From: Methanoculleus horonobensis
GTDB taxonomy: Archaea > Halobacteriota > Methanomicrobia > Methanomicrobiales > Methanoculleaceae
Length of the DNA stretch: 64,000 nucleotides
Direction: 5' to 3'
NCBI RefSeq assembly: GCF_001602375.1
Contig: NZ_BCNY01000013.1
Span: 310,001 to 374,000 of the forward strand
In this document: piece after piece, positions 2,626-24,614 of the stretch
How positions within the stretch are numbered: position 1 is the first letter of the stretch
Layout: the number at the start of each line of letters is the position of its first letter
Made by a program: the position numbers and the translations under genes
The notes under the pieces: generated by a model
Told to the model about the DNA's origin: nothing
Database searches by the model: none
Seen by the model: only the letters and a program-made list of their open reading frames with translations

Positions 2626-3654
2626 ATGGCTCGGATATTTGTCATCGATACACCAACACGGCCGATTGAAACTCCAGTTCTCTTTCCGGTTAATAACACC
2701 GGACACCGGGGAGAGGGGAACGGTCCTGAGTACTGGACGGAAATACCAGACATGAAGACAATGTTACTGAATGCACATCTCCTGTACAAGAGTTCCATTC
2801 TCCAGACCCTTATGGCTGAGGGCCTCCACCGCCATTATACGCAGGACGGCGTCTTCTTCATTGATAGCGGAGGTTTTCAGAACCGAACATCTGATCTCAC
2901 TATCGATCCGATTGAGATTCTCCGGATCCAGGAGAGCATCGGCGCAGACATTGCAGCAACATTGGACATTCCTGTTCTACCCCAGGAAAATACACTAACA
3001 CAGAAACATGCCGAGACCCTCAGAACGTGCGTAAAAAACGCCCTAATTACCCTAAAACATCGAGAACGAGAGGATATGCTAATTTACGCATGCATTCAGG
3101 GAGGAGATATCCGGGCGATGCTCAATATGGTCGATTACCTGCAGAAGAGAGGTCAATTTGATGGATTTGCAATAGGTGGGCTCGTTCCAAAGCGTTCTAA
3201 TTTCCAGCAGATAGTAGATACCATCTGGGCTGTCCGCAAACGGATCAGGGATGCACCACTCCATGTATTTGGGTTGGGAGGTCCATCCTACATCCCGCTT
3301 TTGGTTTACCTCGGTGTTGATACCTTCGATTCTTCATCATACTTAAGGGCCGGTTCGAAGAGAGTATACTTTGTTCCAGGGCAGGGGTCGGTAGATTTTC
3401 AGGACATTGGTAAATGCACATGGCTCCCCTGTGTTTGCCCGGTTTGTAGTGCACACCCATATAATGAAGTTCGTGAAGACCGGCGGTTGATTGCGTTGCA
3501 TAATCTGTGGATGATCACTTATGAGATACGTAAGTTGAAGATCGCGATTAGTGAAAACTCGCTGGAACCGTATCTTGAACAGAGGTTGAAGCCAAATCCC
3601 CTTATTTACGGGGCATATCACTACGCGAAAGGAAAGATCCGAGGTTTTACATGA
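2626..3654 (+). CDS. TGT-fold 7-deazaguanine transglycosylase, compact DpdA-like
   Basis: The 342 aa product is a TIM-barrel transglycosylase of the TGT family. Visible motifs are DSGGFQ (80-85, general acid/base Asp), a base-recognition Asp in ATLD (114), IQGG (157-160), AIGGL (182-186) and the nucleophile region GVDTFDSS (D235). A zinc site CxCxxC (C269, C271, C274) with H292 completes the set. All canonical base-exchange residues are therefore present. It lacks the PUA domain and the length of archaeosine tRNA TGT, so it is unlikely to be the housekeeping enzyme. It leads an operon with a winged-helix protein and an AAA ATPase (4 bp overlap with the next gene). GGAG sits 9 nt before the ATG. 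DNA as substrate is inferred from the island context. Confidence 0.8.
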   Translation: MARIFVIDTPTRPIETPVLFPVNNTGHRGEGNGPEYWTEIPDMKTMLLNAHLLYKSSILQTLMAEGLHRHYTQDGVFFIDSGGFQNRTSDLTIDPIEILRIQESIGADIAATLDIPVLPQENTLTQKHAETLRTCVKNALITLKHREREDMLIYACIQGGDIRAMLNMVDYLQKRGQFDGFAIGGLVPKRSNFQQIVDTIWAVRKRIRDAPLHVFGLGGPSYIPLLVYLGVDTFDSSSYLRAGSKRVYFVPGQGSVDFQDIGKCTWLPCVCPVCSAHPYNEVREDRRLIALHNLWMITYEIRKLKIAISENSLEPYLEQRLKPNPLIYGAYHYAKGKIRGFT

Positions 3655-4493
3655 GAGCAAGCATGAGACCGATAACCTTAGGGAGGGTTGTCGAAACAGT
3701 GTATTTGAGTGAATCACAGGGCGACCTTGATGGTTCGCTGCTCCAGGAAAAATATGGAGTATCGCAACGCCGGGCAAAAGAGATCCTGAATGAAGTTGTC
3801 CGTATGGGGCTACTTCAAGGGGTGGCCGACCAATTTCAACCAACGTCGCTTGGGAAAGACCTGACCATAGCCGTACGCAAAGGAGCGTGGGAACAGGTGC
3901 ATCAGGTTTTGCTGGAATATACCTTCTACTCTGACTTCTACAAAACACTCGTTCAGTATGGGCCGATCGAACCTAAACAGTTGCTGCCTCACCTCAAGGA
4001 GACCCCCTCCTCATTTAATCAGACGTCACTATCCGTTTTATGCGACTGGGTTGAGCGGGTCGGTTCGGCCCAGAGGAACGTGTTCACCAACGTCTACTAT
4101 CCTGTATACGCGATGACCGCACCCATGCTTCCCGAGTTCCTCTGTGTTTACGGGGAGTTGAACACGAGGGCAGGGGCCTCTCTGCACCAGCGATACGTCG
4201 AAATTCCGAAGATCCGTGAGTTAGTGTGCGAAAGGCTGAAGATTCGGAGACGTGACTTCAATGAAGAATTTCTCCGACTTTACAGGAATAATATCGGAAC
4301 TATTGAGCTGAGCGGAGCACCAATTACGACGCATGCCAAGGCTACATCAAAGCACATAAAATCTCTCATTTTCACAGAAATGCCCGACGAGATAACTATG
4401 AAGTTGACTTCCGAGCGTTTTTTAAAGGGAGTAGTGTGCGACTCAAAACAGTATTACTTTGTTGCGATACACGGGGGCGACATCATTGAATAA
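3651..4493 (+). CDS. Winged-helix protein of the TGT operon
   Basis: This 280 aa soluble protein has an N-terminal winged-helix region (about 10-75: VETVYLSESQGDLDGSLLQ, then VSQRRAKEILNEVVRMGLL) and an alpha-helical remainder that I do not recognise. The start ATG overlaps the transglycosylase stop (ATGA) and the stop overlaps the probable start of the ATPase, so the three genes are translationally coupled. By position it could correspond to the unassigned DpdG-type component of bacterial Dpd islands, but I see no sequence proof of that. Confidence 0.7.
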   Translation: MRASMRPITLGRVVETVYLSESQGDLDGSLLQEKYGVSQRRAKEILNEVVRMGLLQGVADQFQPTSLGKDLTIAVRKGAWEQVHQVLLEYTFYSDFYKTLVQYGPIEPKQLLPHLKETPSSFNQTSLSVLCDWVERVGSAQRNVFTNVYYPVYAMTAPMLPEFLCVYGELNTRAGASLHQRYVEIPKIRELVCERLKIRRRDFNEEFLRLYRNNIGTIELSGAPITTHAKATSKHIKSLIFTEMPDEITMKLTSERFLKGVVCDSKQYYFVAIHGGDIIE

Positions 4494-5661
4494 CCCTCTG
4501 TTCCAGTCCCAAACGAAAAACTACAGCCGATTCGGACTTCGCGCAAATCCGTTTCCATATGCAGGAGTTCCTGACGATGAACCGAAGATCTACGTAGGGC
4601 AGGATGAAGTGCTCTTGACTATCAACTCTGTTCTCTCAACCACTATTCTGACAGGCCGTGCAAATCACCTCATCCTAACCGGTTCGTACGGGAATGGGAA
4701 GAGCCACACACTCAAATACATACATTCACAAATCTCTGCTCAATCTACCACATACGAGACACGGCCCTGTATCGGATACGTTGCGCAACCGGGCGAGACC
4801 TTCTTGGACATATACCGGGACTTTGTCTATGATCTGGGCTCGGACTTTATCCAAAGACGAGCGCAGGAGTATATCGGAAAAGTCGCGGTAGATCTTGTCG
4901 AGCAGGGCGTCATTGAAGGACCTATCGATCCCACCAACGGTTGGAAGAGTATCGAAAACGGCAGCATTCTTCTCTCCGAAGTGGTTCCGCATGCCTTTAC
5001 CCGCCTCTCAAAGCATGTTCGGTTTCCGGATTTCGCCCGTGCGTTCATCAATATGGCTTATGAAGAGAATTCGCTGACATCCTGGGAATGGTTAAGTGGA
5101 GAGCCGATTGAGTATACGCGAAGAAGGGAGATGAGCCTGACATCGAATATTGATAAGCGGCATGCACCGCGGGCATTTAGTGCGTTGAAAAAATCTCTTG
5201 AACTCCTCGGGTATGCTCCTGTAATAATGCTTGTCGATGAGTTTGAGCATATCGAGAACCTTCAGGCGCGAACAAAGCAAGACGTCCTAAACTCGTTTAG
5301 GCACTTGATTGACATGAATCCAACAAACTTCTCTCTGATTATTGCATGTGCACCTGAGGTCTGGGAGAAGATGGTTTCGGAATATCATGCCTTTTCAGAA
5401 CGAATTGGGAAAGAAGTCAATCTCAAGCCGCTTACTGCAGAAACTGTCAAGATACTCATCGTAGCATATCTCAATCGTGAGCGGACTACTCCCGCGAGGA
5501 CAATCGAGCCATTTACTGATGAGTCGATCGAGCAGATCTTCAGATCTGGAAACGGAAATACACGCCGTATAATCACATTATGCGGCCAGGCGATGGATCT
5601 CTTCGCCAGTTTGGAGTGCGAAACAATTGATTCTACAGTGCTCCAGAGAGTTGTACGCTGA
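4486..5661 (+). CDS. AAA ATPase of the TGT operon
   Basis: Numbered from the earlier in-frame TTG at 4459, which would give 400 aa, the protein shows an N-terminal FGLRANPF motif (25-32), Walker A GSYGNGKS (75-82) and Walker B VIMLVDEFEHIE (about 255-266). A C-terminal helical lid region contains GNGNTRRII. The layout resembles ORC/TniB/ExeA-type ATPases and the ATPases of BREX and Dpd systems. I prefer the TTG at 4486, 10 nt after a GGGGG run and overlapping the upstream stop. It probably loads or moves the transglycosylase or effector on DNA. Its NPF-GKS layout recurs in the 1129 aa ATPase of the same island. Confidence 0.75.
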   Translation: MNNPLFQSQTKNYSRFGLRANPFPYAGVPDDEPKIYVGQDEVLLTINSVLSTTILTGRANHLILTGSYGNGKSHTLKYIHSQISAQSTTYETRPCIGYVAQPGETFLDIYRDFVYDLGSDFIQRRAQEYIGKVAVDLVEQGVIEGPIDPTNGWKSIENGSILLSEVVPHAFTRLSKHVRFPDFARAFINMAYEENSLTSWEWLSGEPIEYTRRREMSLTSNIDKRHAPRAFSALKKSLELLGYAPVIMLVDEFEHIENLQARTKQDVLNSFRHLIDMNPTNFSLIIACAPEVWEKMVSEYHAFSERIGKEVNLKPLTAETVKILIVAYLNRERTTPARTIEPFTDESIEQIFRSGNGNTRRIITLCGQAMDLFASLECETIDSTVLQRVVR

Positions 5662-5720: not shown

Positions 5721-7379
5721 TTAAGTCATAGATAACAGTTCAAGGCTTTTTATCACTTCGTCCCGAACCGCTTTAGAACGGTCATCGCACAACTGTTGCA
5801 GCACAGGGATTGCCTGAGTGTACCCTATTTTTACTAATGTCCGTATTACCTCGACTCGAACTACTGACGTAGAATTGTGTAAGAGAGCGATCAGCGCAGG
5901 CCCGGCTGCGGTGTCGCCTATATCTCCAAGTGCTATGGTCGCATATCTCTGGATCTCACCTCTCGGATCGAATAAATGTTGAATCAGCGAGGGTGTTGCC
6001 CGTGAGTCTCGTATCTGTCCCAGAGCCTTTATTGCTGCAATACGATTTTCAAGCCGCTTTTGGTTAAGGACTTCAAGTAAGAAGGGCACTGCCTCATGCG
6101 ATCCGATAGAACCAAGGGCACGGATAACATCCACCGACAGGATGACACCAACCTGCCCATACATGGTGATAAGCGACTCAACGGCTCGGTCATCCCTCAG
6201 GAGTGCAAGGGTTTTAATAGCTTCTTTCTGGACATTCGTGTTCTTTGAGGAAGTGAGGCAGTAGACGGCAAGATCGAAGACACCCGAACTATCAAGATAG
6301 TTCCTCAAACTCCTGAGTACATTCTGTATCTCCGTTGTTTTTGCAGTCTGTGACATAATGACGGTGTAGAATTCTGCAATTGCCTCATCCACCGGGCACT
6401 GCGAGACTTCCCGACTCGTGGTGGCTGTCCCTTCTGTATCTTGGATGCCCGATTGACCCGCTTCTGTAGGCACAATCGGTACTTCGTCGATCGATACGGA
6501 TGTATCTGGAACAGGCATTGGCTCCGTCTCACGCACCAGAATAAACAGTGAATAAAAGAAATCCTCAGAAATTTTGAGCAATTCTGCATATTCCGACATG
6601 CGGTCACTATATTTGCAGAACCGAGTAAGATCCGAGAGAGCAATCACAGTATTATGCACATCAGTGAAGTCGAAAAACCCCTCACTGAATTTCCGCCGAA
6701 TCACTTCGATGTCTTCATCGATCTTCTTCCGGGTAAAGCGATGAATAAGCAGGGTTTCTCCTTCGAATAATTTATTTCGAATCTTTTCATATACTCTTCT
6801 GTCCTTCGGAATAAATAGGGGGCCAAGCGCAGAAAGTATACAATCAGCATCTTGTTTGCTAATGAATTGATCAACCTTTTCTTTGCTAATGTCCCAGCAG
6901 TCAGCAACGGTCTCTCGAAAGGCATCCAACCCCTCAGTATATGGAAGAAATTGCAGTTGATCTGCATGCTGCGTGAGAAGAGAATCAAAATGCAAGAGGC
7001 TTAATCCAAGTGTGAGATCAAAGATTCGTGCCTCGATGGGGATGGGTAACAGTGCATATTGGACATTCCGGCCCTTACCATTTCGCTTGACACGTCCCAC
7101 CCTGCGGGGTACAAATCCTTCGGCAATAAAAACAGGGTCTCGCATAGCGATCATGAGCGGTTCACGGATATCTTCTTTCGCGATGCCATATCTCCTTGAG
7201 AGTTCGTCAATAGTCCATGATGATGTCTTTAAATCGTCGATAAGCAGCTCGTATATCGGCTTCTCTAATACACGATAACTCTCGATCTCACTTACCTGCT
7301 CGGGTAAGACGATCCGATTGTTGGACACTAATTGTCGATTATATGCCAGTTTTCGCAGATCTCGCGTGCCTTCGATCAT
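5721..7379 (-). CDS. HEAT-repeat protein with N-terminal winged-helix region
   Basis: The 552 aa product has a possible helix-turn-helix near 50-75 (DDLKTSSWTIDELSRRYGI) and a helical middle. After an acidic linker (about 290-330) the C-terminal 190 residues are at least five HEAT/PBS-lyase repeats, for example AAIKALGQIRDSRATPSLI and YATIALGDIGDTAAGPALI. HEAT arrays are protein or DNA scaffolds. It is the last gene of a six-gene minus-strand operon and its ATG overlaps the stop of the nuclease gene (ATGA), so it is probably a scaffold for that nuclease. No catalytic motif is seen. Confidence 0.75.
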   Translation of the reverse strand: MIEGTRDLRKLAYNRQLVSNNRIVLPEQVSEIESYRVLEKPIYELLIDDLKTSSWTIDELSRRYGIAKEDIREPLMIAMRDPVFIAEGFVPRRVGRVKRNGKGRNVQYALLPIPIEARIFDLTLGLSLLHFDSLLTQHADQLQFLPYTEGLDAFRETVADCWDISKEKVDQFISKQDADCILSALGPLFIPKDRRVYEKIRNKLFEGETLLIHRFTRKKIDEDIEVIRRKFSEGFFDFTDVHNTVIALSDLTRFCKYSDRMSEYAELLKISEDFFYSLFILVRETEPMPVPDTSVSIDEVPIVPTEAGQSGIQDTEGTATTSREVSQCPVDEAIAEFYTVIMSQTAKTTEIQNVLRSLRNYLDSSGVFDLAVYCLTSSKNTNVQKEAIKTLALLRDDRAVESLITMYGQVGVILSVDVIRALGSIGSHEAVPFLLEVLNQKRLENRIAAIKALGQIRDSRATPSLIQHLFDPRGEIQRYATIALGDIGDTAAGPALIALLHNSTSVVRVEVIRTLVKIGYTQAIPVLQQLCDDRSKAVRDEVIKSLELLSMT

Positions 7380-10300
7380 CTGTTTGAAATACTCCCAGAT
7401 TGTACAGTCTCCTGTGGCGATATGATATCCCGAAGTATTCTGCTCTGAGAAAGAGTGTTCAGTTCACCGATCAGGATAAGGTGCTCCCGTGCTGCTGTGA
7501 GTAGCGTATAGAGAACTTTTGGATCCGTCAGCGGCCACCGAAGAACCCTTTCGGGATTTGCATTGACGAAACTGACAATGGCAGTCGTATATGACTGCCC
7601 GTTTAGCTGATGAGGCAGCCACACAGGAACATCTGTTATCCCATGCTCAACAAGTAATGACCGAATTAATGAAGCCTGACTGATGTAGGGTGTGAGTACT
7701 ACACAGGATTCCCGATCTTGGAGGGCAGAGACCACATCTGCAACTCGTTCTGCCTCTGCCTGATTCACAAACATAAGATCCTGAAGTGCCTCAAGGAAGT
7801 TTGCCGGGATTGTGATCGCTACCGTTACGTTCTCATTCTTCCCGGCTGCAGGGCCAATCGGTTCCGACCGTTTGACGGTCAGTGTTCCTGATTTGACCGG
7901 AACTACAGACCCAACTGGATAATCACGGATCTGTTTTCCAGAAAGCCGGTTGATGGCAGTTTCAAGATGTTTGAGATCGATCTCTGTTTTGGGCTCCATT
8001 GAAAGTCGATATTCTGTCGTTACAGGTTCCATGGCAATCGTATACTGCGCATAGATCTTTGAACCGCTATCTTCCTGCCCGTGGACAGTCGTGAAACAGA
8101 CATCCCCACCGTCTGCATCAGCATCGACGCGAGTTCTGGTCTGCCTCAACGCTTCTGTAATTTGACCTGGAAGATAGGGGAAGTGCTCTGAAAAAACGGC
8201 ATACTCTCTCGACTCGAAGAAAGCATCGAATCGGATCAGTTTTTCAAACGTGCTGACACCGAGTCCTGCATTGCGTGCTTCCTGGCTCTTTAACGGAGAT
8301 GCGACACGGTTCGCATCACCGATGAGGATACTCTGCTCTGCAAATGACTGAATATAGTGGCTAAGCGGTTCAAAGAGTTGTTCGGCACCGTCTGCAAGGA
8401 CAAAGTCAAAGTAACGCTTCCTATCCGGGTCTCTCAGTAACTCGAAAACCCGTGATTGGAGCAGGAGATTGCGATCTGTAAGAATAATCGGCGAGAGGCG
8501 AATCCGCTCTTCAATCTCTTCAATGCTTTGCTGGTTGCCGATCTCCCATGAGCCGGGTTCTTCGGTAAACCCTGCTTCTTTGTTAATGACCAGGATCAGG
8601 TGCCGTTTCTTGAAATTCTGAACAAATTCCTCAATCTCCTGTAAGTTCCTCAGAATGACAAGAGTACGCTTCCCTGCATCCAGAGATGCGACCAGATCGA
8701 CGGCGCATGCAACCTCTGAGTGGTGAGCAGGCATCTGAATAGCAATGACCTGTGCTCTTTCTAGAGCGGCAATTACGGCCTCTTTATTGTAGCGGGGGAT
8801 GCGGTGTTCGGGAAGAAGCCTTCCTTTCTGGTAGGAGAGGGTTACCACTCTTTGAGAGCGTTGGATGAAATCAATGACACCAAGAAGTTTCCGGAAGATG
8901 GCGATCTCTACGTAATCTTTGACCAGTGTATAACGGTGCTCTGAGTTCAGGAATTCATCGGGGAGAGAGGCCAGAGTGGCAAGCTCGATCGTTGTTAGAC
9001 CTATGGCATGCACCACTACGCGATACGAATACGCCCCACCTGCAGTCCGCAGCAAGGCATAATCACCAGGAGCAACATCAAGATGTGGAAGTGCTGAAAC
9101 TGAATTCAGGTGCAGTATACCCTTTTCGTATCGACCTAACCTGAGATCCCCCGCTTGTTGACCTGCCAAGACACGCTGTTCTTCAGGAAGGGACCTCAGG
9201 AGCGAACCAAGAGAAGAAAGGAGTGAATGCTCAGCCTTTATTGCACCTCGGATCTTGTTGAAGTAGTCGATCTCATTGATATCAAAGTATGTCAACTTGG
9301 TCGGACACGTATTAATGAGCAGACACCTAGTAGATACAGTACCGCTCTCGTCTGACTCATAACACTCCCAGAACCGCTCGGTTTGGCAGTAATACTGACA
9401 CGGTGGAAGGTTTTTTGAGAGTGCGTGGCCGGGATGGCGCTGGTGGGGGCATTCGCTACACCACTTGCTATGTGTGGTCGGTAATTGCATCCCTTCGCGC
9501 TGCAGGAGGACTTTGTTCCGTGCATTTATGATCTGGTCAATATCCAAGTCGCTCAGCGTAATCTCATGTAAATGACAGGGGTCCCCATCCTGCTCATCAA
9601 ACCGAGCGGGTTGCGTGTACAGGAGGTATCCAGTGCGATTTCCCGAATTGAGATACGATGCAAAGAGGTATACCTGGAGCTGCATCGTATGCTCAGGCCG
9701 AACGTTCCACGACGTCTTCACCTCAACTGGGCGATTGTCGACAACAAGATCGATAATCCCGCCAAGACCGTATACATTGTTAATCTGTACTTCACTCCGG
9801 ACCTCTTTCCCGGAGATGAGGGAGGATAACTCTTCTCGATATAAGGGCGTAGCGAGGTGATGGAAGACATCTTTTTTAATAGATTCAAGGGAGACCCCCG
9901 CAATAAGATGCAGTGCTGCATCCAACCGGAACTCTGTCCGGATCGCCTCATCAATTCTTTCCCGTAATATATGTTCCCGCTCTGCTGGGGGTTGATTACC
10001 GAGTAAACAATATGTCCCGTCACAAAGCATGGCAGCGAGGATGTGATGGACGAGATTGCCACGAGTTATATACTTGTCTGGGTATTTCAGGATGCTGTGC
10101 TTGACACTCTTAACGTAATCGAGATAGTATTTCCTCGGACACGTCCGGACGCTGATGATCTCCCTTGGCCCGACAGGAACAGACGGTGCAGGAAGGAGTA
10201 TTCGCTCAACATTGATCCAGGTTGTCTGTCCCTGCTGGATGACGTAGCCTTCGAAGAAAACCTCTCCACCCGGGGCAAATAGGCGTTTAAAAGCTCCCTC

Positions 10301-10564
10301 ATCTGGATTCTGACTATCAAAGAGATCCCAGAGCATCGGTGAAGTTGAGGGGTAGGGGATCCATTCGGGAACCATCCGCCAGACGGTAATTTTTACGTCA
10401 GTTCCTGGTGGAGATTCGAGATCAAGGACATACTTCGGGCCACCCCGGGTAGGCGAATAATAAGGGCCAGATGCAAGTGTAGCAGTGCTCTGAATGAAGT
10501 TTCTGTTGTATCTTGCCGGATCTGCATACAGATCAGCAGAGTCAACGTACGTGCTCATAATCAC
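7376..10564 (-). CDS. Cas4/Dna2-like Fe-S nuclease fused to a degenerate SF1 helicase
   Basis: The 1062 aa product carries a Cas4/RecB-type PD-(D/E)XK nuclease: TCPRKYYL (C142), LVHHIL (H173/174), GIIDLV (D272), VEVKTS (E281, K283) and MQLQVYLFA (Q295). The cysteines C369, C372 and C389/C393 probably ligate a 4Fe-4S cluster with C142. The C-terminal half has the order of a Dna2/UvrD_C_2 helicase, ending in YTTAIVSFVNA and LLTAAREHLILIGELN. However, the Walker A position reads QMPAHHSEV with no GKT, and the DExx position reads LADGAEQL. ATP-driven unwinding is therefore unlikely. Start and stop overlap the neighbouring genes, showing tight coupling to the DUF1998 and HEAT proteins. Confidence 0.8.
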   Translation of the reverse strand: MIMSTYVDSADLYADPARYNRNFIQSTATLASGPYYSPTRGGPKYVLDLESPPGTDVKITVWRMVPEWIPYPSTSPMLWDLFDSQNPDEGAFKRLFAPGGEVFFEGYVIQQGQTTWINVERILLPAPSVPVGPREIISVRTCPRKYYLDYVKSVKHSILKYPDKYITRGNLVHHILAAMLCDGTYCLLGNQPPAEREHILRERIDEAIRTEFRLDAALHLIAGVSLESIKKDVFHHLATPLYREELSSLISGKEVRSEVQINNVYGLGGIIDLVVDNRPVEVKTSWNVRPEHTMQLQVYLFASYLNSGNRTGYLLYTQPARFDEQDGDPCHLHEITLSDLDIDQIINARNKVLLQREGMQLPTTHSKWCSECPHQRHPGHALSKNLPPCQYYCQTERFWECYESDESGTVSTRCLLINTCPTKLTYFDINEIDYFNKIRGAIKAEHSLLSSLGSLLRSLPEEQRVLAGQQAGDLRLGRYEKGILHLNSVSALPHLDVAPGDYALLRTAGGAYSYRVVVHAIGLTTIELATLASLPDEFLNSEHRYTLVKDYVEIAIFRKLLGVIDFIQRSQRVVTLSYQKGRLLPEHRIPRYNKEAVIAALERAQVIAIQMPAHHSEVACAVDLVASLDAGKRTLVILRNLQEIEEFVQNFKKRHLILVINKEAGFTEEPGSWEIGNQQSIEEIEERIRLSPIILTDRNLLLQSRVFELLRDPDRKRYFDFVLADGAEQLFEPLSHYIQSFAEQSILIGDANRVASPLKSQEARNAGLGVSTFEKLIRFDAFFESREYAVFSEHFPYLPGQITEALRQTRTRVDADADGGDVCFTTVHGQEDSGSKIYAQYTIAMEPVTTEYRLSMEPKTEIDLKHLETAINRLSGKQIRDYPVGSVVPVKSGTLTVKRSEPIGPAAGKNENVTVAITIPANFLEALQDLMFVNQAEAERVADVVSALQDRESCVVLTPYISQASLIRSLLVEHGITDVPVWLPHQLNGQSYTTAIVSFVNANPERVLRWPLTDPKVLYTLLTAAREHLILIGELNTLSQSRILRDIISPQETVQSGSISNR

Positions 10565-12606
10565 TGAACCTCCAGAAGCCGCGCTAAGAGGCGTTTATTG
10601 AGTAAGGTGGATTCAAACAGGTCTTGTCCATAGGAGGATGAGATCTCAATACACTCTGGACAACCGTTGATGCATGAAGGCATCATCTCCTCAATCCGGA
10701 CGACTAGTTCACTGAGATCTCCTTTCTTTCGAGTACGATATTTCTCAAAGGCTGCAGTCGCTCGAGGATCGTAGAACATATCACCGGAGCAGTAGAGTAG
10801 AAGATCGATAGTTGTCGGTGTTCGATGGAGTTTTTTAAGAATATCGGTGTACCCTCGAATCAGCTCAGAGTAGAATGCCGCAATGTCCTCTGATGATACC
10901 AACCTATTTATATCGATTTTACAGAATGCAAGAAGATCCTCTCTCTTCTTTGCATGCAAGTTAAACCCATATTGCCTCTCGAATTTTTCTAGCGCCAGAC
11001 GGAGGATAGTATCCTGATCAGAATCCAACCCGTTAAACCCCGCAGCAAGGAACTCGGGATCATATACCCGGAAGAGATCGTGTATGATTGATTCCGTGAT
11101 ATTGACATCACACAGCAGACTCTGTTCCAATGCTTTTCGGACGTCAAAAAGTTCTGGAGAAATACCCTGAAACTTCCGGAAGAGTTCTTTTGCAATGCCT
11201 GACCCTCCCTGGTAGCGATCATATGCATAGAAGGTCATGGTTTCCCCGTCAGACTCTTGCCAGTACGTCAACCCGTCTCCTGCAGATCCAAAGAACTGTT
11301 GGAGCCAGACTTGGATAGTTTTCTCCAGCGTTGCACAGAGGGTTCGTCTGCAGAACGCCTCCAGTTCATTGATGTCAAATGCACGGTTAAAAATATCCTC
11401 AAATAAAGCGTGGTTCTCGGTTAAGAGAGAGATCAGATCCTCCCTTCGAGCCGGATCGTATCCTGCTAGCCGTAATCGGGTCTCGTTACTGTTGGGGATC
11501 AGTTCCTGAAGGAGCAGTTCGATGTCAGGTGTCTCTTGGTCGAAAAGTTCTTTGAGGTTCTCTGCACGCCCTGTTTGGCGTACCCAGTAATCAAGGGCGA
11601 CCAAGAGTTGATAAAGTCCATCAATGTCGTAAGTGCTGTCAAGAGGGGTCTGCTGGTATAGGACTGATTCATACAGTTGTAAGAGGACATACTGCATTCT
11701 AAGATCGTTCTGCAGGATTTCGTCTTCCTGCAGGATATCTGGTATCCTCTCAAAGAGATGTTTGAGAGAGAACTCGAAGACAGTGGCCTGTGAGAGGTGC
11801 TCGGTTCCAAGAAGCGCGTAGGTATTATCATTGTCGTGATAAAACCGTACCAACCGAGTAAGGGTATTTGTGGCTTTCCCAAAAAGATGGATGCAGTTTG
11901 CATAGTAACAACGTGCAAGGACAAACTTCTCCATATAGCCGATGGTCTTTATCAGGCTCTCTCCGGGGAACTCGATCACGCGTTCCGCAGGCCCTCCATA
12001 AGTCATGATATTTGTATAGAGGGGTGTTGAGAGGGGGTCTCGCGCAACCTCGATAGCGTTCCCGGTATCAGCGTGAGTGAGCAGGTGCTGCTCTTCATCC
12101 CAATAATACTTGGCATTTGCCAGGACTTTTTCAACTTTGACCTGATCGGGGAAGTAAATCTTTGCTTGTTGGACTGGGATATTGAGTGGGGAGAATGTCT
12201 CTGATTCTGCATAGATCTGACTGAGTGGCACTGACTTTTCGAATCGAAATGTCGGGTGAATATTTGCACATTCCAAGTGCTTTTCGCTCGGCGCCCAGAT
12301 TGCTCTGTAGTGATGAAATCCCCAGCGTTTCTTATAGCCACCTGGCAGGAAGTTTGCAAGAATGAACTCCTTTGTTTCAGAACCTTCACTCTTCACCCGG
12401 CCACCGGACACATCGTGGATCTCAATGTTCCCTCCGACGTAGATTGGGATGAATGTTCCTGGGACATAATATGGTTTAACAACACACGGATCAACTGCGA
12501 AGAGATTTGGAGGGTGGAAGTAAGGATATGCATAGGATCTTGCCTGTAATGCTTTCCAGTATGTCAGAGCACCCAGTGCCCGTTCGTGATTATGCCTGCG
12601 CTCCAT
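10561..12606 (-). CDS. DUF1998 (DrmB/MrfA C-terminal-like) protein
   Basis: This 681 aa protein has the DUF1998 signature: a YAYDRYQGGSGIAKELF segment and, near the C-terminus, a cysteine cluster C645-I-N-G-C649-P-E-C652 followed by YGQDL. In DISARM the separate DUF1998 protein DrmB partners the DrmA helicase; in MrfA the domain is fused to the helicase and binds zinc. Here it begins 1 nt after the DEAH helicase gene ends, a split helicase/DUF1998 pair. The N-terminal 200 residues, rich in Tyr and Phe, are not recognisable. Homology is to the domain only; whether it is closer to DrmB or to a Dpd component cannot be told by eye. Confidence 0.75.
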   Translation of the reverse strand: MERRHNHERALGALTYWKALQARSYAYPYFHPPNLFAVDPCVVKPYYVPGTFIPIYVGGNIEIHDVSGGRVKSEGSETKEFILANFLPGGYKKRWGFHHYRAIWAPSEKHLECANIHPTFRFEKSVPLSQIYAESETFSPLNIPVQQAKIYFPDQVKVEKVLANAKYYWDEEQHLLTHADTGNAIEVARDPLSTPLYTNIMTYGGPAERVIEFPGESLIKTIGYMEKFVLARCYYANCIHLFGKATNTLTRLVRFYHDNDNTYALLGTEHLSQATVFEFSLKHLFERIPDILQEDEILQNDLRMQYVLLQLYESVLYQQTPLDSTYDIDGLYQLLVALDYWVRQTGRAENLKELFDQETPDIELLLQELIPNSNETRLRLAGYDPARREDLISLLTENHALFEDIFNRAFDINELEAFCRRTLCATLEKTIQVWLQQFFGSAGDGLTYWQESDGETMTFYAYDRYQGGSGIAKELFRKFQGISPELFDVRKALEQSLLCDVNITESIIHDLFRVYDPEFLAAGFNGLDSDQDTILRLALEKFERQYGFNLHAKKREDLLAFCKIDINRLVSSEDIAAFYSELIRGYTDILKKLHRTPTTIDLLLYCSGDMFYDPRATAAFEKYRTRKKGDLSELVVRIEEMMPSCINGCPECIEISSSYGQDLFESTLLNKRLLARLLEVQ

Positions 12607-12607
12607 A

Positions 12608-15115
12608 TCAGTTCTCCTCGAGGTAGTATGCGATCCGGTTCAATCGGTCGATAATGTCATCGACCGTCGTTTTGTTCTTGAGGTACCTGACTGTACAGTA
12701 GTACTTGCTTGTGGGATCTTCCACTCTCAACGGTTCAGAGCAGGAGGCAAAGTACTGCTTGATCATGTGGAGTTCCTGTTTCGCCACATCATACCGAAGG
12801 TTGAAGGTCTGACAGATGTCTATCAGTAAGTTCTCCTCCGTCTGCTCAATGAGACTGAGGGTCTCTTCCGTATCTACCTGATAGTAGACCTGGTCGAGGA
12901 CTTCGATCGCATAACGGGTGCTGATATAGTCGTAGATGAACGACGTGATATGCATCGCTTTGATGTACCTATTTTCCGGGTCAATGGGGATCTCAAGTTT
13001 ACTGTCGTGGGGATTGGTAAGGAACGAGGTGTGGTGAAAATAAAAATTATCTATCGGACGTGATCCAAGTACCACAACCGCAATGGGCATGTCGGCCGGT
13101 GATCGCCCACCCCGACCGATGCGTTGGATGAAACCCGGAATGTTCATCGGGGCCATATACTGGAATGTTCCGATAATACCCGGATGATCAAAACCAACCT
13201 CAAGGGCGGATGTCGTGATCATCATGTCCCATTCTTCTGAGTTTGGTTGCCCGCCTGCACAGTCCTGTGTTGTGCCGGATTTGTGAATCTGGATGCTCAT
13301 CGGCCTATCATCGGTTTCCTGCATGACCCACCAGCACTCTCCATCGAGGTATGTCTGGCATCGGTTGATGTAGGGGTTCGGAGGCAGAGATCTGCATCCG
13401 ACATGCGGGCACTGGCGGTTTCGAGATGTTTCCAGTCGTGCATCTGGGGTCCTTAACTGATAGAGGCGCCGATTCCGCTCGGCATCACATAACTTTTCCC
13501 CGAGTCGTTTTATAATATCGATGGAGTCAACGAATCCAATGATCCGGTTTTTCTCACTTGTTTTCAGCATGGTGTGGAAGAAACAGAAGGCAGTCTGAAT
13601 CATTGCCGAGAGGTTTGTGGCAATGGTATAGTTTGTCTGTTCTTCCTGGCTTGCCTCCGGACTGAGCAATATCTTCCGCGGATGTGTTGCTTTTAAAAAT
13701 ACGATATACTCTCGACCCATTTCTTCTAATTCAACTTCATTCGGACAGATTACTTTTGCATCCTCAGTCGAGAAGAGGTTACAACAGAACTCCTTGGGTT
13801 TACCGACCGTGGCACTCGAGGCAATGAATATCGGTTCAGAACCACCCGAATGGCGGATCTTGTGGCGAAGCCGGCGAACAATGTTTGCGACATGCATTCC
13901 AGATTGATTCGTATAGATATGGGCTTCATCAAAGACGATGTATTTTGGAAGTATCTGCTTATTCCAGATATTCAACTTCCCCTCACGGTCCATTAAACGG
14001 CGATGGAGCGAATCAGGAGTGGTTATGATGATATCGGCTGTAGCAGTTTTTTTCACCACAAAATTAACTGTATGTGTTGCATCATCACAGCACACGAAAC
14101 CATTTGGACCGGCCTGCAACGATCCGCTACACCCTTGATGCGGGCATTTTAGGGGAAGGTCTTCGGTCTTACCATGATGAATCCCTATACGGATTGGGTT
14201 CTGAAGGGTGGCGTTGACAGCATACACGTATTCGATAAGTCTTTGCAGTTGATCATTGCAGAGATCGATGCGTGGATAGACAAGGATTGCTTTGGTACCA
14301 CGCTTCTCCTGTGTCAGCAATGCATACAGCAGGATTGGGAAAAGAAAAGCTTCTGTTTTTCCTGAGCCGGTACTTGATTGAATGATATATGAAAGAATTT
14401 CCGATGAAAAATCCTTAGATATTGCCGCTTGGAATAATTCTTGAAACCCTCTGAGCTGGAATGATGAAAGATTTATCTCATTATGCTTTTTATTGAACCG
14501 ATTCTCAACCATCGATCGAAACGAAATGAGTGAATCTCTCGAATTTTTCTGTAAGAACGGACGAATATTTTCGTCTATCTGAACGGCATTCTTTACCATC
14601 GAAAGAGTTCGGATCGCCCGTACCAGAGGGATGTCCCTTCGTGGCCGAAGGCGACTTTTTACCTCTAATTTAACCATGTGCGCCAAACCGGGACTTGCTG
14701 TATAGTCCTCGTCAAACCTCTGCTTTAGATACGACAAGTAGCGAACCAGTTCTGCAATTCTGCTCCTCACCCGCTGCCTGTCATAAATGTATAAGAGATA
14801 CTGCTCATCGACAAGTTCCTGGACGCAAGTGGCAATGATCCAGGTCACCGTCTCGGGTGAGGGAGCTGTCGGCGAACCCTTCATGTCAATGAATAGCGAG
14901 GTAATTAACGATCCGTGATTTTTGGTGAGATGATTTATGATATTCTTGAGACTGACAAAGCAGTCATAGTCTCCCCGATTGATATCATCCGCATTTCTGT
15001 CCTCGACATATTTGATGATCTGATACTTGACTGCCTCCCTGTTGCTCTTTGCCACCTCTGGTGTGCAGGGATGGGTCCATAACTTCTGAAGATCTTCGAT
15101 ACTTGTGAAGTCCAC
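12608..15115 (-). CDS. DEAH-box superfamily 2 helicase
   Basis: The 835 aa product shows SF2 motifs in order: Walker A SSTGSGKT (247-254), DEAH (396-399), SAT (434-436), TSALEVGFD (about 635-643) and QRIGRGGR (664-671). Extra cysteine pairs lie at CPHQGC (about 324-329) with CC (342-343), and at CPHVGC (about 569-574) with later Cys residues, which may bind zinc. The start is GTG with TGAGG just upstream, 11 nt past the stop of the preceding ATPase gene. The motif set (STGSGKTE, GRGGR) matches the DrmA/MrfA/YprA-like branch. Together with the next gene it should translocate on and unwind DNA, or sense modified ends. Confidence 0.85.
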   Translation of the reverse strand: MDFTSIEDLQKLWTHPCTPEVAKSNREAVKYQIIKYVEDRNADDINRGDYDCFVSLKNIINHLTKNHGSLITSLFIDMKGSPTAPSPETVTWIIATCVQELVDEQYLLYIYDRQRVRSRIAELVRYLSYLKQRFDEDYTASPGLAHMVKLEVKSRLRPRRDIPLVRAIRTLSMVKNAVQIDENIRPFLQKNSRDSLISFRSMVENRFNKKHNEINLSSFQLRGFQELFQAAISKDFSSEILSYIIQSSTGSGKTEAFLFPILLYALLTQEKRGTKAILVYPRIDLCNDQLQRLIEYVYAVNATLQNPIRIGIHHGKTEDLPLKCPHQGCSGSLQAGPNGFVCCDDATHTVNFVVKKTATADIIITTPDSLHRRLMDREGKLNIWNKQILPKYIVFDEAHIYTNQSGMHVANIVRRLRHKIRHSGGSEPIFIASSATVGKPKEFCCNLFSTEDAKVICPNEVELEEMGREYIVFLKATHPRKILLSPEASQEEQTNYTIATNLSAMIQTAFCFFHTMLKTSEKNRIIGFVDSIDIIKRLGEKLCDAERNRRLYQLRTPDARLETSRNRQCPHVGCRSLPPNPYINRCQTYLDGECWWVMQETDDRPMSIQIHKSGTTQDCAGGQPNSEEWDMMITTSALEVGFDHPGIIGTFQYMAPMNIPGFIQRIGRGGRSPADMPIAVVVLGSRPIDNFYFHHTSFLTNPHDSKLEIPIDPENRYIKAMHITSFIYDYISTRYAIEVLDQVYYQVDTEETLSLIEQTEENLLIDICQTFNLRYDVAKQELHMIKQYFASCSEPLRVEDPTSKYYCTVRYLKNKTTVDDIIDRLNRIAYYLEEN

Positions 15116-15126: not shown

Positions 15127-18100
15127 TCAGTGGCTCTTCTTTATTCGAATCTCAATGGCTTCGATATCTCCACGGACATAGAGACTCTGGAGGAATTTGA
15201 ACGCCTTATCGACCGTGTAACTTTCAAGAATTGTATCAAGTGTCACACTACTCTGGGCAGAAAACTTCTCCATAAACTCATCTTCAGGCGTTTTTACCGG
15301 TTGCTCTCGTTTCTTAAGAGCATCCTGGAACTGTGAAACTTTCATTTCTGCTGTGGCAAAGTCCCACTCTCGAAGTGCCTCTTCCGCTTCATCCAGATAC
15401 AGAAGGGTTTGTGGTTCTTCGGGCACTGACGCTCTATGGGCTGCAATCATTTGTTCATAGTTCTGGTAACTGTTCTTCTGCTTTACCAAGTTTCCTTTCA
15501 GTGTGATCAGCCCGGCATGAATCGACTCAATTATTCGGAGAGCATCTGCATATTTTCCATCGTTAAAGAGCGGTAAGTATTCGTGCGATTGTTTATTATT
15601 AAGATCAGCAAAATTCTCCAGATATCTGGGATTGCTGTATCCAAGTTCCTCAAGATCCGCTAAGAGTTCTCCTATTGCATTTTTAAGATCGTCCACTTGT
15701 TTTGCATATGAGATACAGGGTTCTTTGCTCGTCTCCCTGTCGCGAATCTCGCGTGTATTGATCTTGATAACGTTCTCGAGTTGATTCAAATAAACAGTGA
15801 GAGCACTAAAGTTTCCTTCCTTCAGTTTCTCTGAGGCCTGAGTGTAGAGATCGTCGATATGAGCCTGCCACTCTACATGCTCGTTATCGGTGATGATCCC
15901 ACGCTCAAATGCCCCACGGATTCTCTCTTTAGTGAGATCCATTTGCTCTTTGTAGTTCGATAGAGTGGATGCATGCAACGTCCGTGTGCTTTTGATCTCA
16001 TTGTTCACTGCGCTTTTGACATTCCCGATATCATCGAGAATGTTCTTCGCTTTGATGATATGATCGCTGCCGGGTTCAGGTTCAACAGTGAGTGGGTCGA
16101 GTCGTCCTTCCAGAGTCTCGACCTTTCGCTCGTAATCGCTTATTGCAATATTTAACCTCTCAGCATCGGTTAGAAGCGACCCCAAATCGCGTAGGGCTTC
16201 TTCACACTGTGTGACAAGCACATCGAGTTTTTGAGAGTGATCAAGAAGTCGGTACACGACGGAGGCATCTTCTTTGGCACCGGCGATCATCTCGAGTCTG
16301 ACCAGCAGATCGATGTACCAATTGAGAAGTCTGAGTTCTTCTCCCGGAGAGCATTGCAATGTATACTGGCTCTCAAGATACTCCTTGATCTCGTCGAGAG
16401 TGGCATATTTTTTCTGAACAATGAATCCATAAATCAGTTTCCAGATGGGGTCCAAGTCCAGTGATGCAATCTGCCACCGTGTCCCATCCTTCTTGACAAA
16501 ATGTTGCTTTAACAGACCATTAAGGGTTTCCGAGTCCAGATACGGCGCACTGCATTCTGTCCTCAGATCTTTCAGGGAGTAGGTCCGGGTCTGATCTTCA
16601 GCGAGCTTTTCGATAACTCGCCTGACACCCGGATCGTCGGGGAAAGGAATTACCTTTGTCAACACGAGCTGCTCCATCTCGTTTGCTATCCCAATGGAAG
16701 AGAGGAGACTTGACGTATCGATATCATCCGTTGTCTCCACCTCCGGATTGCCAAGGAGTTTGATCTTCCCCATCAACTGCTCATCAGGTATGGGAAGTTT
16801 TGTAGCCTCAATGGTTCGGATACTCTCTAAAAAGACGCTTTTCCCTGCATCTCTGAGATCGCGGCGGAACTTCTGATAGATAGGATCGTTTTCAAGTCTG
16901 TTCCCAAACTTCTTCTCAAGTGTGGTGGAATCGTACAGGACAGCACTGAACGTTGCCTGTTTTGACTCTATGAGGTTGATGAGACCATTATACAGACTCT
17001 CTGGGAATTCAACTCCTTTAAACGCCGTCAATGCAATGCTGTAGGGAATTGGTGAGTTCCCTATTCTACATTTTCCGATAATCACCAATTTATCATCAAA
17101 AATATGCCTTGACTTGAACTCGGCGTTCATTTCCTTCTGCAATATCTTCCAGAACCCTTTAGTCAACTGGTCTTGATATCGGCCTGGATTTGTCATTAAA
17201 TCAATTAATTCGTAGTCTAGAGCCAGTTCTGTTTCAGAATCATATCGCTTGCCCTTAAAGATCTCGCTAATGACTTCCGGACTGATCGTGTAAAAAGTTT
17301 CTCCATCCTTATTCGTTTTCCGCTCGAGAATACGGGTTCCATGAATGGGTCGTGTGAGTGCTTCAGCAAATGCCGGCTCAGTAAAATCATCTTCCGTAAC
17401 ACTTTTCCCTTCTCCGATGAGAACGCCCATCAGAGTTGCAAAATCCTTTTCGAGCGCTTCATTCTCTGCTGCGATGTTCTGTCTGATCGACTCCAGGCGA
17501 TTCCAATCAAGCACAATTGTCTTGTTAAAGAAGGACTCATGCTTCGCAAGGACCTGAATAATTCTGTTGCCATTAACCTCTTTTGTCCCACTTCGCAGCG
17601 TTTCACGAAGAGCTCTGTTAAATATTGCCAAGATCTCACGGGGATTTCCACCAACATTTCTTGTGACAACAGATATGACCTCTTGCTTGATTGGATAGAG
17701 CGAATCGCTCGGAACAACCCGGGCACTGTTCAGGCGATCAAGTATCATCGAGGTGGTGTCTTTTTCTCGCAGATTACCGAGCCGAATAGGTTCTTCTGGA
17801 GAGAATCGTTGCCAGAAGGCGTCGCCAAGTTTTCGATCGCCACCCTGCGAAGAGTCAACAATTGAGATCTTGCTCACGGCTTCCCGCGAGAATCCCATGA
17901 TTATATGAAGCGGGGTGCCCAGCAGTTTATTGATCAGGTGAAGCAAGCTCTGAATGAAGTACTGTACCTGGTCATTATCGTCTGATTGGACAATATCCTC
18001 CGCCTCATCGATGAGGAGAAAGATTCCATGAATATTGTTGATCCTGGCATCCGCCATGATTCGGTTGAGGTTAGCGATGATATTCTCGCGGAGTTTCTCA

Positions 18101-18516
18101 AGTGCATAGGTAGGTTCCACGCTCTGGGCGGGTTCCACATCAGGAAGATTCTCAAGAGTTCCTCGTAGAGCTGGGACATTTTGTTTCAGCGTTTCAATGA
18201 TATTTTCGTAGAGTTTGCGAAAACTGATGCCTAGATTCCCAAGATATATTGCAGTGACACCACTGCCGTACTTGCCGCTGATGATTTCCTCACGAAGTTT
18301 GATAAGGTGATGCGTTTTCCCGGTGCCATATTCCCCCATAATGAAGATCCGTTTCTGGAAATCCGCTTTTACGGCAGAGCGCACAAATTCATCCAATCGT
18401 TCAATCTGATCCTCCCGACCATACAACCCATACTGGATTGCCAATCGTTCATCGGCAATGATCGTCTCAAAAGGGTTCCGCATCAACCCAAGGTCTTCAT
18501 ATGATGTTTCAGGCAT
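15127..18516 (-). CDS. Large AAA ATPase with coiled-coil C-terminus (DpdH/BrxC-like)
   Basis: The 1129 aa product begins with a GLMRNPF motif (10-16), Walker A GEYGTGKT (61-68) and Walker B FLLIDEAED (about 166-174), with a FSREAVSKI sensor-like region later. The middle is a long alpha-helical part with winged-helix-like segments. From about residue 770 onward Glu/Lys-rich heptads suggest coiled coils. Size and layout recall the large ATPases of BREX (BrxC) and Dpd (DpdH). It overlaps the preceding 262 aa gene by 8 bp. The N-terminal arrangement mirrors the 4486-5661 ATPase, so the island carries two NPF-type ATPases. Confidence 0.8.
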   Translation of the reverse strand: MPETSYEDLGLMRNPFETIIADERLAIQYGLYGREDQIERLDEFVRSAVKADFQKRIFIMGEYGTGKTHHLIKLREEIISGKYGSGVTAIYLGNLGISFRKLYENIIETLKQNVPALRGTLENLPDVEPAQSVEPTYALEKLRENIIANLNRIMADARINNIHGIFLLIDEAEDIVQSDDNDQVQYFIQSLLHLINKLLGTPLHIIMGFSREAVSKISIVDSSQGGDRKLGDAFWQRFSPEEPIRLGNLREKDTTSMILDRLNSARVVPSDSLYPIKQEVISVVTRNVGGNPREILAIFNRALRETLRSGTKEVNGNRIIQVLAKHESFFNKTIVLDWNRLESIRQNIAAENEALEKDFATLMGVLIGEGKSVTEDDFTEPAFAEALTRPIHGTRILERKTNKDGETFYTISPEVISEIFKGKRYDSETELALDYELIDLMTNPGRYQDQLTKGFWKILQKEMNAEFKSRHIFDDKLVIIGKCRIGNSPIPYSIALTAFKGVEFPESLYNGLINLIESKQATFSAVLYDSTTLEKKFGNRLENDPIYQKFRRDLRDAGKSVFLESIRTIEATKLPIPDEQLMGKIKLLGNPEVETTDDIDTSSLLSSIGIANEMEQLVLTKVIPFPDDPGVRRVIEKLAEDQTRTYSLKDLRTECSAPYLDSETLNGLLKQHFVKKDGTRWQIASLDLDPIWKLIYGFIVQKKYATLDEIKEYLESQYTLQCSPGEELRLLNWYIDLLVRLEMIAGAKEDASVVYRLLDHSQKLDVLVTQCEEALRDLGSLLTDAERLNIAISDYERKVETLEGRLDPLTVEPEPGSDHIIKAKNILDDIGNVKSAVNNEIKSTRTLHASTLSNYKEQMDLTKERIRGAFERGIITDNEHVEWQAHIDDLYTQASEKLKEGNFSALTVYLNQLENVIKINTREIRDRETSKEPCISYAKQVDDLKNAIGELLADLEELGYSNPRYLENFADLNNKQSHEYLPLFNDGKYADALRIIESIHAGLITLKGNLVKQKNSYQNYEQMIAAHRASVPEEPQTLLYLDEAEEALREWDFATAEMKVSQFQDALKKREQPVKTPEDEFMEKFSAQSSVTLDTILESYTVDKAFKFLQSLYVRGDIEAIEIRIKKSH

Positions 18517-19297
18517 AGAAATTCAACCTCTGTGCAATATCCATGTTCATGGAGTACTTCCCATAACTCCCCGTCACAATTAACTCAGGAAGGAGCAACC
18601 GTACTGTTGAAAAATTGTTGTCAAATACCTCATAACTTACCGCATACTTTAAATCAAAGAGATCTCTCATGTCACTAGAACTCACAGTTCCGTCAACTGG
18701 GTTTACGTTTGCCTGATATTCTTCCACAAGGAGTTGTGCAAACAGAAGTGGGTGGATATATGTGAGTGAGTAACAATTTTCCTGCAGTTCAATCAGTTCT
18801 AAACGGAGCAAAGTTTGCAGGGCGAAATCAATTGTCGCCTGATTAAAGGTATGTCCATATACCTGTTTCTTGAGATACTCGGTTCCAACTTCCGCCCTGC
18901 GCGCCTTCCTTTTCTTGAATATAAATGCTAACATATCTCGGATTTCAGGAGAGAAATAGAGACTATTGGTCTGCAACATAGTGTAGACCATCTGGAGGTC
19001 ATCCCTAACTTTTGCGGCATATAAGTCCTTCCCGGAGTATAGGTTGATTCCGGGATTCTGTATCGAAGAGGTGAGGATGAGTGCTGTGTCCTCCCCCTCT
19101 ACAAACCCAAGTATCTCACGGATGTAGTACAGAACGTCATTTGTTGCCCCATCCCGGGACTTGACCTGCGCGTCCATGTCAGGATTAGTAAAATTCACAA
19201 GATGGTCAAACAGTATCTGCTTTGCGACGGGACCGTTCTTTCCGATGAACTCAATCGCAATAAGCATCTGCCGAGGATTTGCAGTCAATCTTCTCAA
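18509..19297 (-). CDS. Winged-helix protein, first gene of the restriction-like operon
   Basis: This 262 aa helical protein contains a winged-helix-like stretch around 135-185 (AEVGTEYLKKQVYGHTF, then ATIDFALQTLLRLELIELQ). The start is TTG, chosen because GAGGAG sits 5 nt upstream; no better ATG is near. It leads the six-gene minus-strand operon and overlaps the large ATPase gene. Pairing with an ATPase repeats the winged-helix/ATPase pattern of the left-hand operon. I cannot assign a family. A regulatory or substrate-sensing role for the ATPase is a guess. Confidence 0.65.
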   Translation of the reverse strand: MRRLTANPRQMLIAIEFIGKNGPVAKQILFDHLVNFTNPDMDAQVKSRDGATNDVLYYIREILGFVEGEDTALILTSSIQNPGINLYSGKDLYAAKVRDDLQMVYTMLQTNSLYFSPEIRDMLAFIFKKRKARRAEVGTEYLKKQVYGHTFNQATIDFALQTLLRLELIELQENCYSLTYIHPLLFAQLLVEEYQANVNPVDGTVSSSDMRDLFDLKYAVSYEVFDNNFSTVRLLLPELIVTGSYGKYSMNMDIAQRLNFYA

Positions 19298-23645: not shown

Positions 23646-23654
23646 GAAGAGATC

Positions 23655-24614
23655 ATGCCGTGGGATGAATATAGGGATCTTTCAATCCAAGTACAACCAA
23701 GTAGAACAGCCTTACCGAAGTATAGTGTGACCGGAGATATCCTCTCATACCGGCGGTGCCCCCGCCAGTACGGCTTTTTTACGGTTCGCGGATACAAGTC
23801 GGCTCACCAAGTTCAACTCTGGTTTGGAACTATCATCCATCAGACGTTAGATAAACTCCACCTGCAATACAAGGGACTTGTCGATCCGACGATGCAAGGT
23901 AAGGTACCCACTGAAGACGATGTCGAAAGATACTTCAGACAGGTCAACATGAGCCTTCGAGCCCGAGGAATCCGTGGATATAACGATGATAATGAAATCC
24001 ATGCTCTTGCAATTCTGCGTCGATTCAACGAATTGGAAGGTGCTCGGCTCTATCCGCATATCATCGACACGGAATGCGCGTTCCAGACTCAGCAAGAAAC
24101 CTACGTCCTTGAGGGTGTCGTCGATGTCCTTCGTGATCTCACGCATGAGACTGTGCCACAAGGATATGAACCTGTTGAGATCTGGGACTATAAGGCCGGA
24201 TATAACCCCTCTTCCAACAGGACCGAAACCAGGTCAAGATTATATGAGGATTATGAATTCCAAATGCTTGTGTACGCTGAACTTTATCGACTTCGAACCG
24301 GAATGTACCCCACGCGGGGGATCTTGTACTTCATGAACGAACTTGTGCAGAAGCGGGGGAAAAAGTCTGCTTGGGTTTCAGTTCCCGACAAACAGGCTCA
24401 GCAGCGTGCAATGTTGGTGTTTGATTTCACGGATCCAAAGATACTAATACGGATACAGGAAGCTATGGCTCAATATGGTCACATTGTTGCCGAAATCGAG
24501 CAACGCAAATTGACTAACCTGTGGCCTCCTTCAGACCATCCAGACAGGGATACCTGCGCCACCTGCGATAAGCGGTGGGATTGTGAGCATGGGACAACGC
24601 TGACTCCACCATGA
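23655..24614 (+). CDS. Cas4/AddB-like Fe-S PD-(D/E)XK nuclease
   Basis: The 319 aa product shows the complete RecB/Cas4 nuclease set: RRCPRQYGFF (C35), GTIIHQTLD (H62), LEGVVDVL (D157), EIWDYKAG (D178, K180) and FQMLVYAEL (Q203). The C-terminal cysteines C301, C304 and C310 should ligate a 4Fe-4S cluster with C35. The protein is longer than Cas4 (about 200 aa) and resembles the nuclease end of AddB. It follows the UvrD-like helicase by 9 nt, a helicase-nuclease operon that ends the island. No cas genes or CRISPR array are nearby, so a CRISPR adaptation role is unlikely. Confidence 0.82.
   Translation: MPWDEYRDLSIQVQPSRTALPKYSVTGDILSYRRCPRQYGFFTVRGYKSAHQVQLWFGTIIHQTLDKLHLQYKGLVDPTMQGKVPTEDDVERYFRQVNMSLRARGIRGYNDDNEIHALAILRRFNELEGARLYPHIIDTECAFQTQQETYVLEGVVDVLRDLTHETVPQGYEPVEIWDYKAGYNPSSNRTETRSRLYEDYEFQMLVYAELYRLRTGMYPTRGILYFMNELVQKRGKKSAWVSVPDKQAQQRAMLVFDFTDPKILIRIQEAMAQYGHIVAEIEQRKLTNLWPPSDHPDRDTCATCDKRWDCEHGTTLTPP

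Follow-up and report, generated by a model that had tools for sequence, protein, structure and literature searches.

The locus raises the question of what work could be done by a nuclease that is fused to a helicase without an ATP site, and of what might move such a protein along DNA. The gene lies in the 64,000-nucleotide stretch of Methanoculleus horonobensis DNA analysed here (the window), at positions 7376–10564 on the minus strand, with a GTG start at 10564 and a stop at 7376; the boundaries given in an earlier note on this DNA were correct. It encodes a 1062 aa protein in which an Fe-S PD-(D/E)xK nuclease precedes a motor-dead SF1B helicase of the Dna2/Upf1 type. The nuclease domain (residues 126–440, 9245–10189), delimited by Pfam, alignment and a fold match to the Dna2 nuclease, includes a PDDEXK_1 match at residues 138–375 (E = 2.8e-13) and a weak match to Cas_Cas4, just below the cut-off for that family. 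All the catalytic and cysteine residues that the earlier note had ascribed to this half were found, namely H173, E258, D272, E281-x-K283, Q295 and Y299, together with the aligned cysteine cluster C369, C372, C389, C393, C401, C414 and C420 (9305–9460) and C142 upstream. Judged by these residues, the N-terminal nuclease is intact.

The C-terminal half comprises two RecA-like domains, both on the same strand and both apparently dead as motors. Domain 1A (residues 591–780, 8225–8794) was identified from structure and sequence comparison, and domain 2A (residues 930–1048, 7421–7777) from Pfam and alignment, with an AAA_12 match at residues 930–1034 (E = 2e-7). In the alignment the Walker A position is occupied by QMPAHHSEV (residues 610–618, 8711–8737), and a pattern scan for the P-loop [AG]x4GK[ST] found none over the entire 1062 aa. 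At the motif II position, alignment with mouse Dna2 and the homologues places ADGAEQ (residues 724–729, 8378–8395), such that DEASQ of mouse Dna2 stands opposite DGAEQ. The losses of the Walker A GKT and of the DExx acid pair, both described earlier, were thus borne out. As for the C-terminal helicase motifs, said in the earlier note to be kept, this proved true of the fold and not of the chemistry: the RecA fold (AAA_12) and the GD of motif III are retained, but motif V has changed from QGxE to NGQS and motif VI from LTRA to LTAA, and the catalytic residues of both are degenerate.

Absence of the ATPase motifs is also what a decayed gene on its way to loss would display, and the homologues bear on this directly. 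Eighteen full-length archaeal homologues from methanogens and haloarchaea were aligned, with 22–41% identity to the protein of the window. Walker A and the DE pair are both missing from all 18, and the full-length frame is open in every one. The nuclease residues H173, E258, D272, K283, Q295 and Y299 are invariant throughout the set, as are the eight cysteines (C142, C369, C372, C389, C393, C401, C414 and C420), and the combined pattern lies far beyond chance. At the Walker A position P612 is the sole invariant residue, while at motif II the catalytic Glu is replaced by an invariant Gly (G726) within a new pattern in which E728, E732 and P733 are also invariant; motif III is mostly GDxxR. In three pairs of closely related copies dN/dS was 0.03–0.23 in every domain and 0.07–0.20 in the dead helicase regions, which are thus under purifying selection. 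The earlier note had allowed that only this copy might have decayed, as homologues with a normal Walker A would show, or that a Walker A had been missed elsewhere in the protein; neither was found, and the loss is conserved. The same loss in all homologues, the open frames and dN/dS well below 1 in the dead domains identify the protein, as far as sequences can tell, as a maintained pseudohelicase and not a decayed copy. Decay is already refuted, and we regard it as scarcely credible.

The conserved replacement of motif II (G726, E728, E732, P733), together with GDxxR, looks like a retained functional surface. It could belong to a sensor or regulator, in which case the dead helicase half would license the nuclease on binding a ligand such as a nucleotide, a modified strand or a protein from a phage, and inactive P-loop domains have indeed been proposed as sensors in BREX proteins (PMC12839542). 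The Walker A residues that contact nucleotide are gone, so that ordinary ATP binding is unlikely; on balance a sensor role seems rather unlikely.

The cysteines set the family apart from canonical archaeal Dna2, in which the first Cys is followed by the signature C-x2-C-x5-C. In the motor-dead family C369-x2-C372 is followed by an insertion carrying C389, C393, C401 and C414 and only then by C420, a spacing that departs from C-x2-C-x5-C. As a guess, four of the eight might be ligands of a 4Fe-4S cluster and four might bind Zn; the cysteine region had pLDDT below 50 in both the full-length and the nuclease-only predicted models.

By sequence and fold the family nevertheless belongs with Dna2, from which it derives. 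In hhalign, a family profile aligned colinearly with haloarchaeal chromosomal Dna2-like proteins over approximately 800 columns, with E values of 3e-22 to 2e-24. These proteins retain GPPGTGKT and DEAxQ, and their LVDEAAQLTEP lies opposite LGAEQLTEP of the motor-dead family. The closest solved structure by sequence was mouse Dna2, matched in two stretches, and Dna2 ranked first both in the PDB profile search and in Foldseek (Foldseek E = 4.7e-31), the full-length predicted model being of middling confidence (mean pLDDT 62, pTM 0.43). When the nuclease domain was modelled alone its best match was again Dna2 (Z = 15.3, rmsd 3.0, 227 aligned), level with AdnAB (Z = 15.0), while AddAB chains gave Z of about 11–12; with the full-length model and 1000 realigned chains, AddB was absent among the best 50 of the 1000.

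Resemblance to Dna2 extends over the whole architecture, in which a linker region connects an N-terminal Fe-S PD-(D/E)xK nuclease to SF1B domains 1A and 2A in the same order. The motor-dead protein differs in its lack of Walker A, the DE pair and motifs V and VI, in the extra cysteine-rich insertion in the Fe-S loop and in its linkage to DpdJ and DpdA, described below. It also has no match to the Pfam Dna2 family PF08696 at E = 0.1, whereas canonical archaeal Dna2 matches at 4.7e-17. The two proteins coexist in haloarchaea, where a canonical Dna2 is encoded elsewhere in each of the 16 genomes that carry the motor-dead gene. Sixteen archaeal Dna2 proteins were checked, including 11 that come from carriers, and every one has an intact Walker A and DE; these proteins form the separate clade to which the nearest relatives with an intact Walker A belong. 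In an unrooted tree the motor-dead family and Dna2 are parted by one branch with 100/100 support. Given this split and the motor intact in all the Dna2 proteins checked, one ancestral loss of the motor would be the simplest account, of which an unrooted tree is no proof.

Homologues were found in 16 of 391 genomes of the haloarchaeal class, covering 15 genera, on haloarchaeal plasmids, and in named genomes, among them those of Haloterrigena salina, Halopenitus persicus and Halorubrum ezzemoulense. Among methanogens, the gene is carried by four genomes from the order to which the window's host belongs, that of the host included, one copy being a fragment at a contig end. A search of genome contigs with the single protein gave zero relatives and a profile search of the same contigs gave 12; no homologue was found in the phage records and viral contigs searched.

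In the window the gene belongs to an operon on the minus strand. The operon starts with a 262 aa protein of no known family (18509–19297), followed by an Orc1/Cdc6-like AAA ATPase of 1129 aa (15127–18516), which has an intact P-loop, GEYGTGKT, and stands in the position of DpdH. Next come the two halves of a split DpdJ/YprA helicase: an 835 aa DpdJ/YprA-like DEAH helicase half (12608–15115) with SSTGSGKT, DEAH and QRIGRGGR intact, and a 681 aa protein with the MrfA Zn-binding MZB/DUF1998 domain (10561–12606), representing the C-terminal half. The ORFs of this second half and of the nuclease share 4 bases, and the nuclease gene in turn has a 4-base overlap with the last gene of the operon, encoding a HEAT-repeat protein of 552 aa (5721–7379). 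On the plus strand at 19461–21185 is DpdA, the 7-deazaguanine DNA transglycosylase, fused to DUF6884 (NCBIfam DpdA model, 313.8 bits, cut-off 200). Also on the plus strand is a triad (2626–5661) of a second TGT paralogue (2626–3654), a 280 aa protein (3651–4493) and a BrxD-like ATPase (4459–5661). The DUF6884 part at the C terminus of DpdA is weakly DpdC-like, and perhaps base insertion and base conversion are combined in one protein.

The island (window 2000–24000) has a GC content of 45–50%, compared with 58–70% in the flank at 24–64 kb, and none of the other listed members of the genus has it in its genome. Lower GC and this absence indicate that the island was probably acquired, and the GC difference suggests that the acquisition was recent. 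It is flanked by a short Mrr_N fragment (1839–2195) and an HNH endonuclease ORF (24748–25983).

The set of genes resembles the bacterial Dpd system (DpdA–K), which puts 7-deazaguanines into DNA as marks, in having DpdA and a DpdJ/YprA helicase directly before the nuclease gene. The DpdJ-like helicase scored 210.9 bits with the curated DpdJ model, for which the cut-off is 800, and is homologous but split, the MZB/DUF1998 part being kept. Neither DpdK (PLD) nor DpdD was matched among the ten island proteins scanned, homology to DpdD being undetectable, and DpdB (DGQHR) was found nowhere in the host genome. No counterpart in bacterial Dpd was matched for the 262 aa, 280 aa and HEAT proteins, and neither the 262 aa protein nor the 1129 aa AAA ATPase could be paired with DpdG, DpdH or DpdI, no homology to DpdH being detected in the latter. 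Bacterial Dpd loci have DpdK, the PLD nuclease, and DpdD immediately after DpdJ; here the same place is occupied by a protein derived from Dna2.

Linkage to DpdJ is strict. The order DpdJ/YprA helicase half, DUF1998/MZB half and nuclease was kept in every locus read on both sides and is common to haloarchaea, methanogens and Pirellulaceae. DpdA was present in all 19 carrier genomes tested, 16 haloarchaea and three methanogens, and in 15 of the 16 haloarchaeal carriers it is on the same contig as the nuclease gene. Among the 391 haloarchaeal genomes 56 have DpdA and all 16 carriers are among them (hypergeometric P of about 4e-15), a value that overstates the strength of the association because related genomes are not independent draws, although the carriers span 15 genera. 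The nuclease gene is missing from 40 of the 56 DpdA-positive haloarchaeal genomes; thus DpdA does not require it.

These counts also bear on a role in modification or repair, in which the protein would open and trim DNA for base exchange by DpdA, or mend damage. The constant presence of DpdA in carriers and the action of Dna2 relatives in repair would fit such a role, but so many DpdA genomes lack the gene, and a canonical Dna2 is already available in the 16 haloarchaeal carriers, that we consider it very unlikely.

The helicase half is dead in every relative found, and the gene is always beside an intact motor protein in clusters predicted to label self DNA by exchanging a base; the nuclease therefore probably does the cutting for an antiviral machine and uses the motor of its partner. 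A motor is at hand in the 835 aa DpdJ-like protein, whose three helicase motifs are complete. The more specific reading, which we hold to be somewhat better than an even chance, is that the protein, derived from Dna2, is the effector nuclease of a restriction system of the Dpd-like kind, with DpdJ as the motor and the dead helicase as a clamp or docking platform. DpdA/DUF6884 would mark self DNA with 7-deazaguanine, and the products of the minus-strand operon would attack DNA that is unmarked, so that the modified base would separate self from non-self. The split DpdJ/YprA helicase (835 aa and 681 aa) would provide translocation and unwinding, and the displaced single strand would enter the Fe-S-stapled tunnel of the nuclease and be cut there. 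The dead SF1B half, hydrolysing no ATP, may serve as a clamp on the single strand, as an exit channel and as a docking surface for DpdJ. By analogy, the nuclease of Dna2 acts behind Sgs1/BLM and can do without the ATPase of Dna2 itself; tasks may be divided in the same way here, with the spare motor removed. Against the effector reading stand the middling confidence of the full-length model (pLDDT 62, pTM 0.43), the 40 of 56 DpdA haloarchaea without the gene, the loss of catalytic residues in Pirellulaceae, the missing match of the 262 aa and 1129 aa proteins to DpdG, DpdH or DpdI, and a UvrD helicase nearby that might also drive movement.

The earlier note had proposed a scaffold relying on the neighbouring DEAH helicase or on AAA ATPases for movement. 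Reliance on the DEAH helicase fits the context, given the strict synteny with a DpdJ that has its motor motifs intact; the term scaffold undersells a nuclease that, from its residues, appears active, and the Dpd base-modification setting was missed. Movement could instead come from another neighbour. A UvrD helicase, itself intact, adjoins a 319 aa Cas4-like nuclease with cysteines of the Fe-S type at 21369–24614 on the plus strand, and this pair could be an alternative source. Intact P-loops are present in UvrD, in the Orc1/Cdc6-like AAA ATPase and in the BrxD-like ATPase, and three loci of methanogens and one of haloarchaea have a UvrD/Cas4-like pair next to the island. DpdJ/MZB alone, however, borders the nuclease gene wherever a locus was read, Pirellulaceae among them; the UvrD pair was found at a small number of loci, and for the AAA and BrxD ATPases no match was obtained close to the nuclease at several loci of haloarchaea. 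A motor other than DpdJ is thus quite unlikely. The UvrD/Cas4-like pairs related to that of the window are found beside the island in the genomes G087 and G088 and at one locus of G385.

A homologue from Pirellulaceae (planctomycetes; L094:9788–12865, hhalign E = 1e-30 to the motor-dead family) extends the comparison to bacteria. Here the helicase motifs are lost and so are the equivalents of the nuclease residues H173 and E258, which makes this protein unlikely to be a cutter, and still all eight cysteines are retained. Its gene directly follows that of a DpdJ whose halves are fused in a single polypeptide (hhalign E = 5e-95 and 2e-23), and DpdA and DpdB are nearby. Its placement in the tree is unsure, on a long branch, and no further copy of this type was found among 297 other genomes of its class. 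A different arrangement was found in the Dpd locus of a plasmid of Caulobacter sp. S6 (L096:32454–41047), in which DpdJ carries an intact SF1B helicase at its N terminus, as a fusion protein of 2102 aa, and is preceded by a gene for a 762 aa Cas4-like nuclease. The locus shows that modules of the SF1B, Cas4-like and DpdJ kinds have come together on more than one occasion, and those of Caulobacter are not specifically close to the motor-dead family. Kinship of the family to bacterial DpdD, to a 935 aa protein of Paenibacillus and to the 762 aa Caulobacter nuclease was tested and was undetected.

Pairing of a nuclease/helicase paralogue whose motor is lost with an active motor partner is known from AddB and RecC, which derive from SF1A and have the nuclease at the C terminus. 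The motor-dead family differs in its N-terminal nuclease, in its SF1B (Upf1/Dna2) helicase and in having an SF2 partner. RecC also has a dead nuclease (PMC1185551), and in this it is like the Pirellulaceae copy. Tentatively, and with somewhat less than even confidence, a Dna2-type enzyme may be pictured as having shed its motor and taken on the cutting in a DNA-degrading machine that DpdJ drives and base modification gates, tasks being shared as between Sgs1/BLM and Dna2 but in the service of restriction; the planctomycete copy would then have lost its nuclease residues too, in the manner of RecC, and the eight-cysteine module would be the most conserved function, above either catalysis.

In 2025, Dpd-like classes were described together with Dpd-like/ARMADA-like hybrids of haloarchaea, named BRIGADE, in which a PD-(D/E)xK nuclease occasionally replaces the PLD nuclease (PMC12458937). 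The window shares with BRIGADE a Dpd-like helicase and 7-deazaguanine genes, and the homologue loci L007, L041 and L081 carry a second YprA helicase. Two YprA-like helicases, one of them ARMADA-like, are usual in BRIGADE, whereas a search with the ARMADA-like query left the window with one, the DpdJ-like; and BRIGADE is known from halophilic archaea while the host of the window is a methanogen, with McrA encoded twice, although homologues of its nuclease do occur in halophiles. In the main text of that paper Dna2 and Cas4 are unmentioned and SF1 appears only in a reference. A Cas4-like nuclease beside a DUF1998 YprA (COG1205) helicase was reported in 2017 from defence loci of bacteria and mesophilic archaea (PMC5704561); the relevant passages of that report, which may or may not concern the same genes, contain no dead SF1B half, Dpd link or conservation analysis. 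Cas4-like/YprA links, Dpd-like systems and BRIGADE are thus already published, while the conserved pseudohelicase appears not to be: a motor-dead Dna2 was not found in the texts of PMC5704561 or PMC12458937, whose supplements may hold an earlier mention.

The family would offer a concrete architecture for Dpd restriction, a motor-less nuclease always beside one split motor that has no nuclease. Since evolution has kept the helicase domain and removed its ATPase, it also provides a natural test of the view that this domain of Dna2 is chiefly a DNA-binding element, for which the copy in Pirellulaceae and, in Caulobacter, the fusion of an active SF1B helicase to DpdJ are points of comparison.

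Last, the triad of the small TGT, the 280 aa protein and the BrxD-like ATPase is conserved close to the Dpd operon both in methanogens and in haloarchaea, and a Dpd locus of Paenibacillus includes a small TGT similar to the second TGT paralogue of the window (hhalign E = 7e-12).
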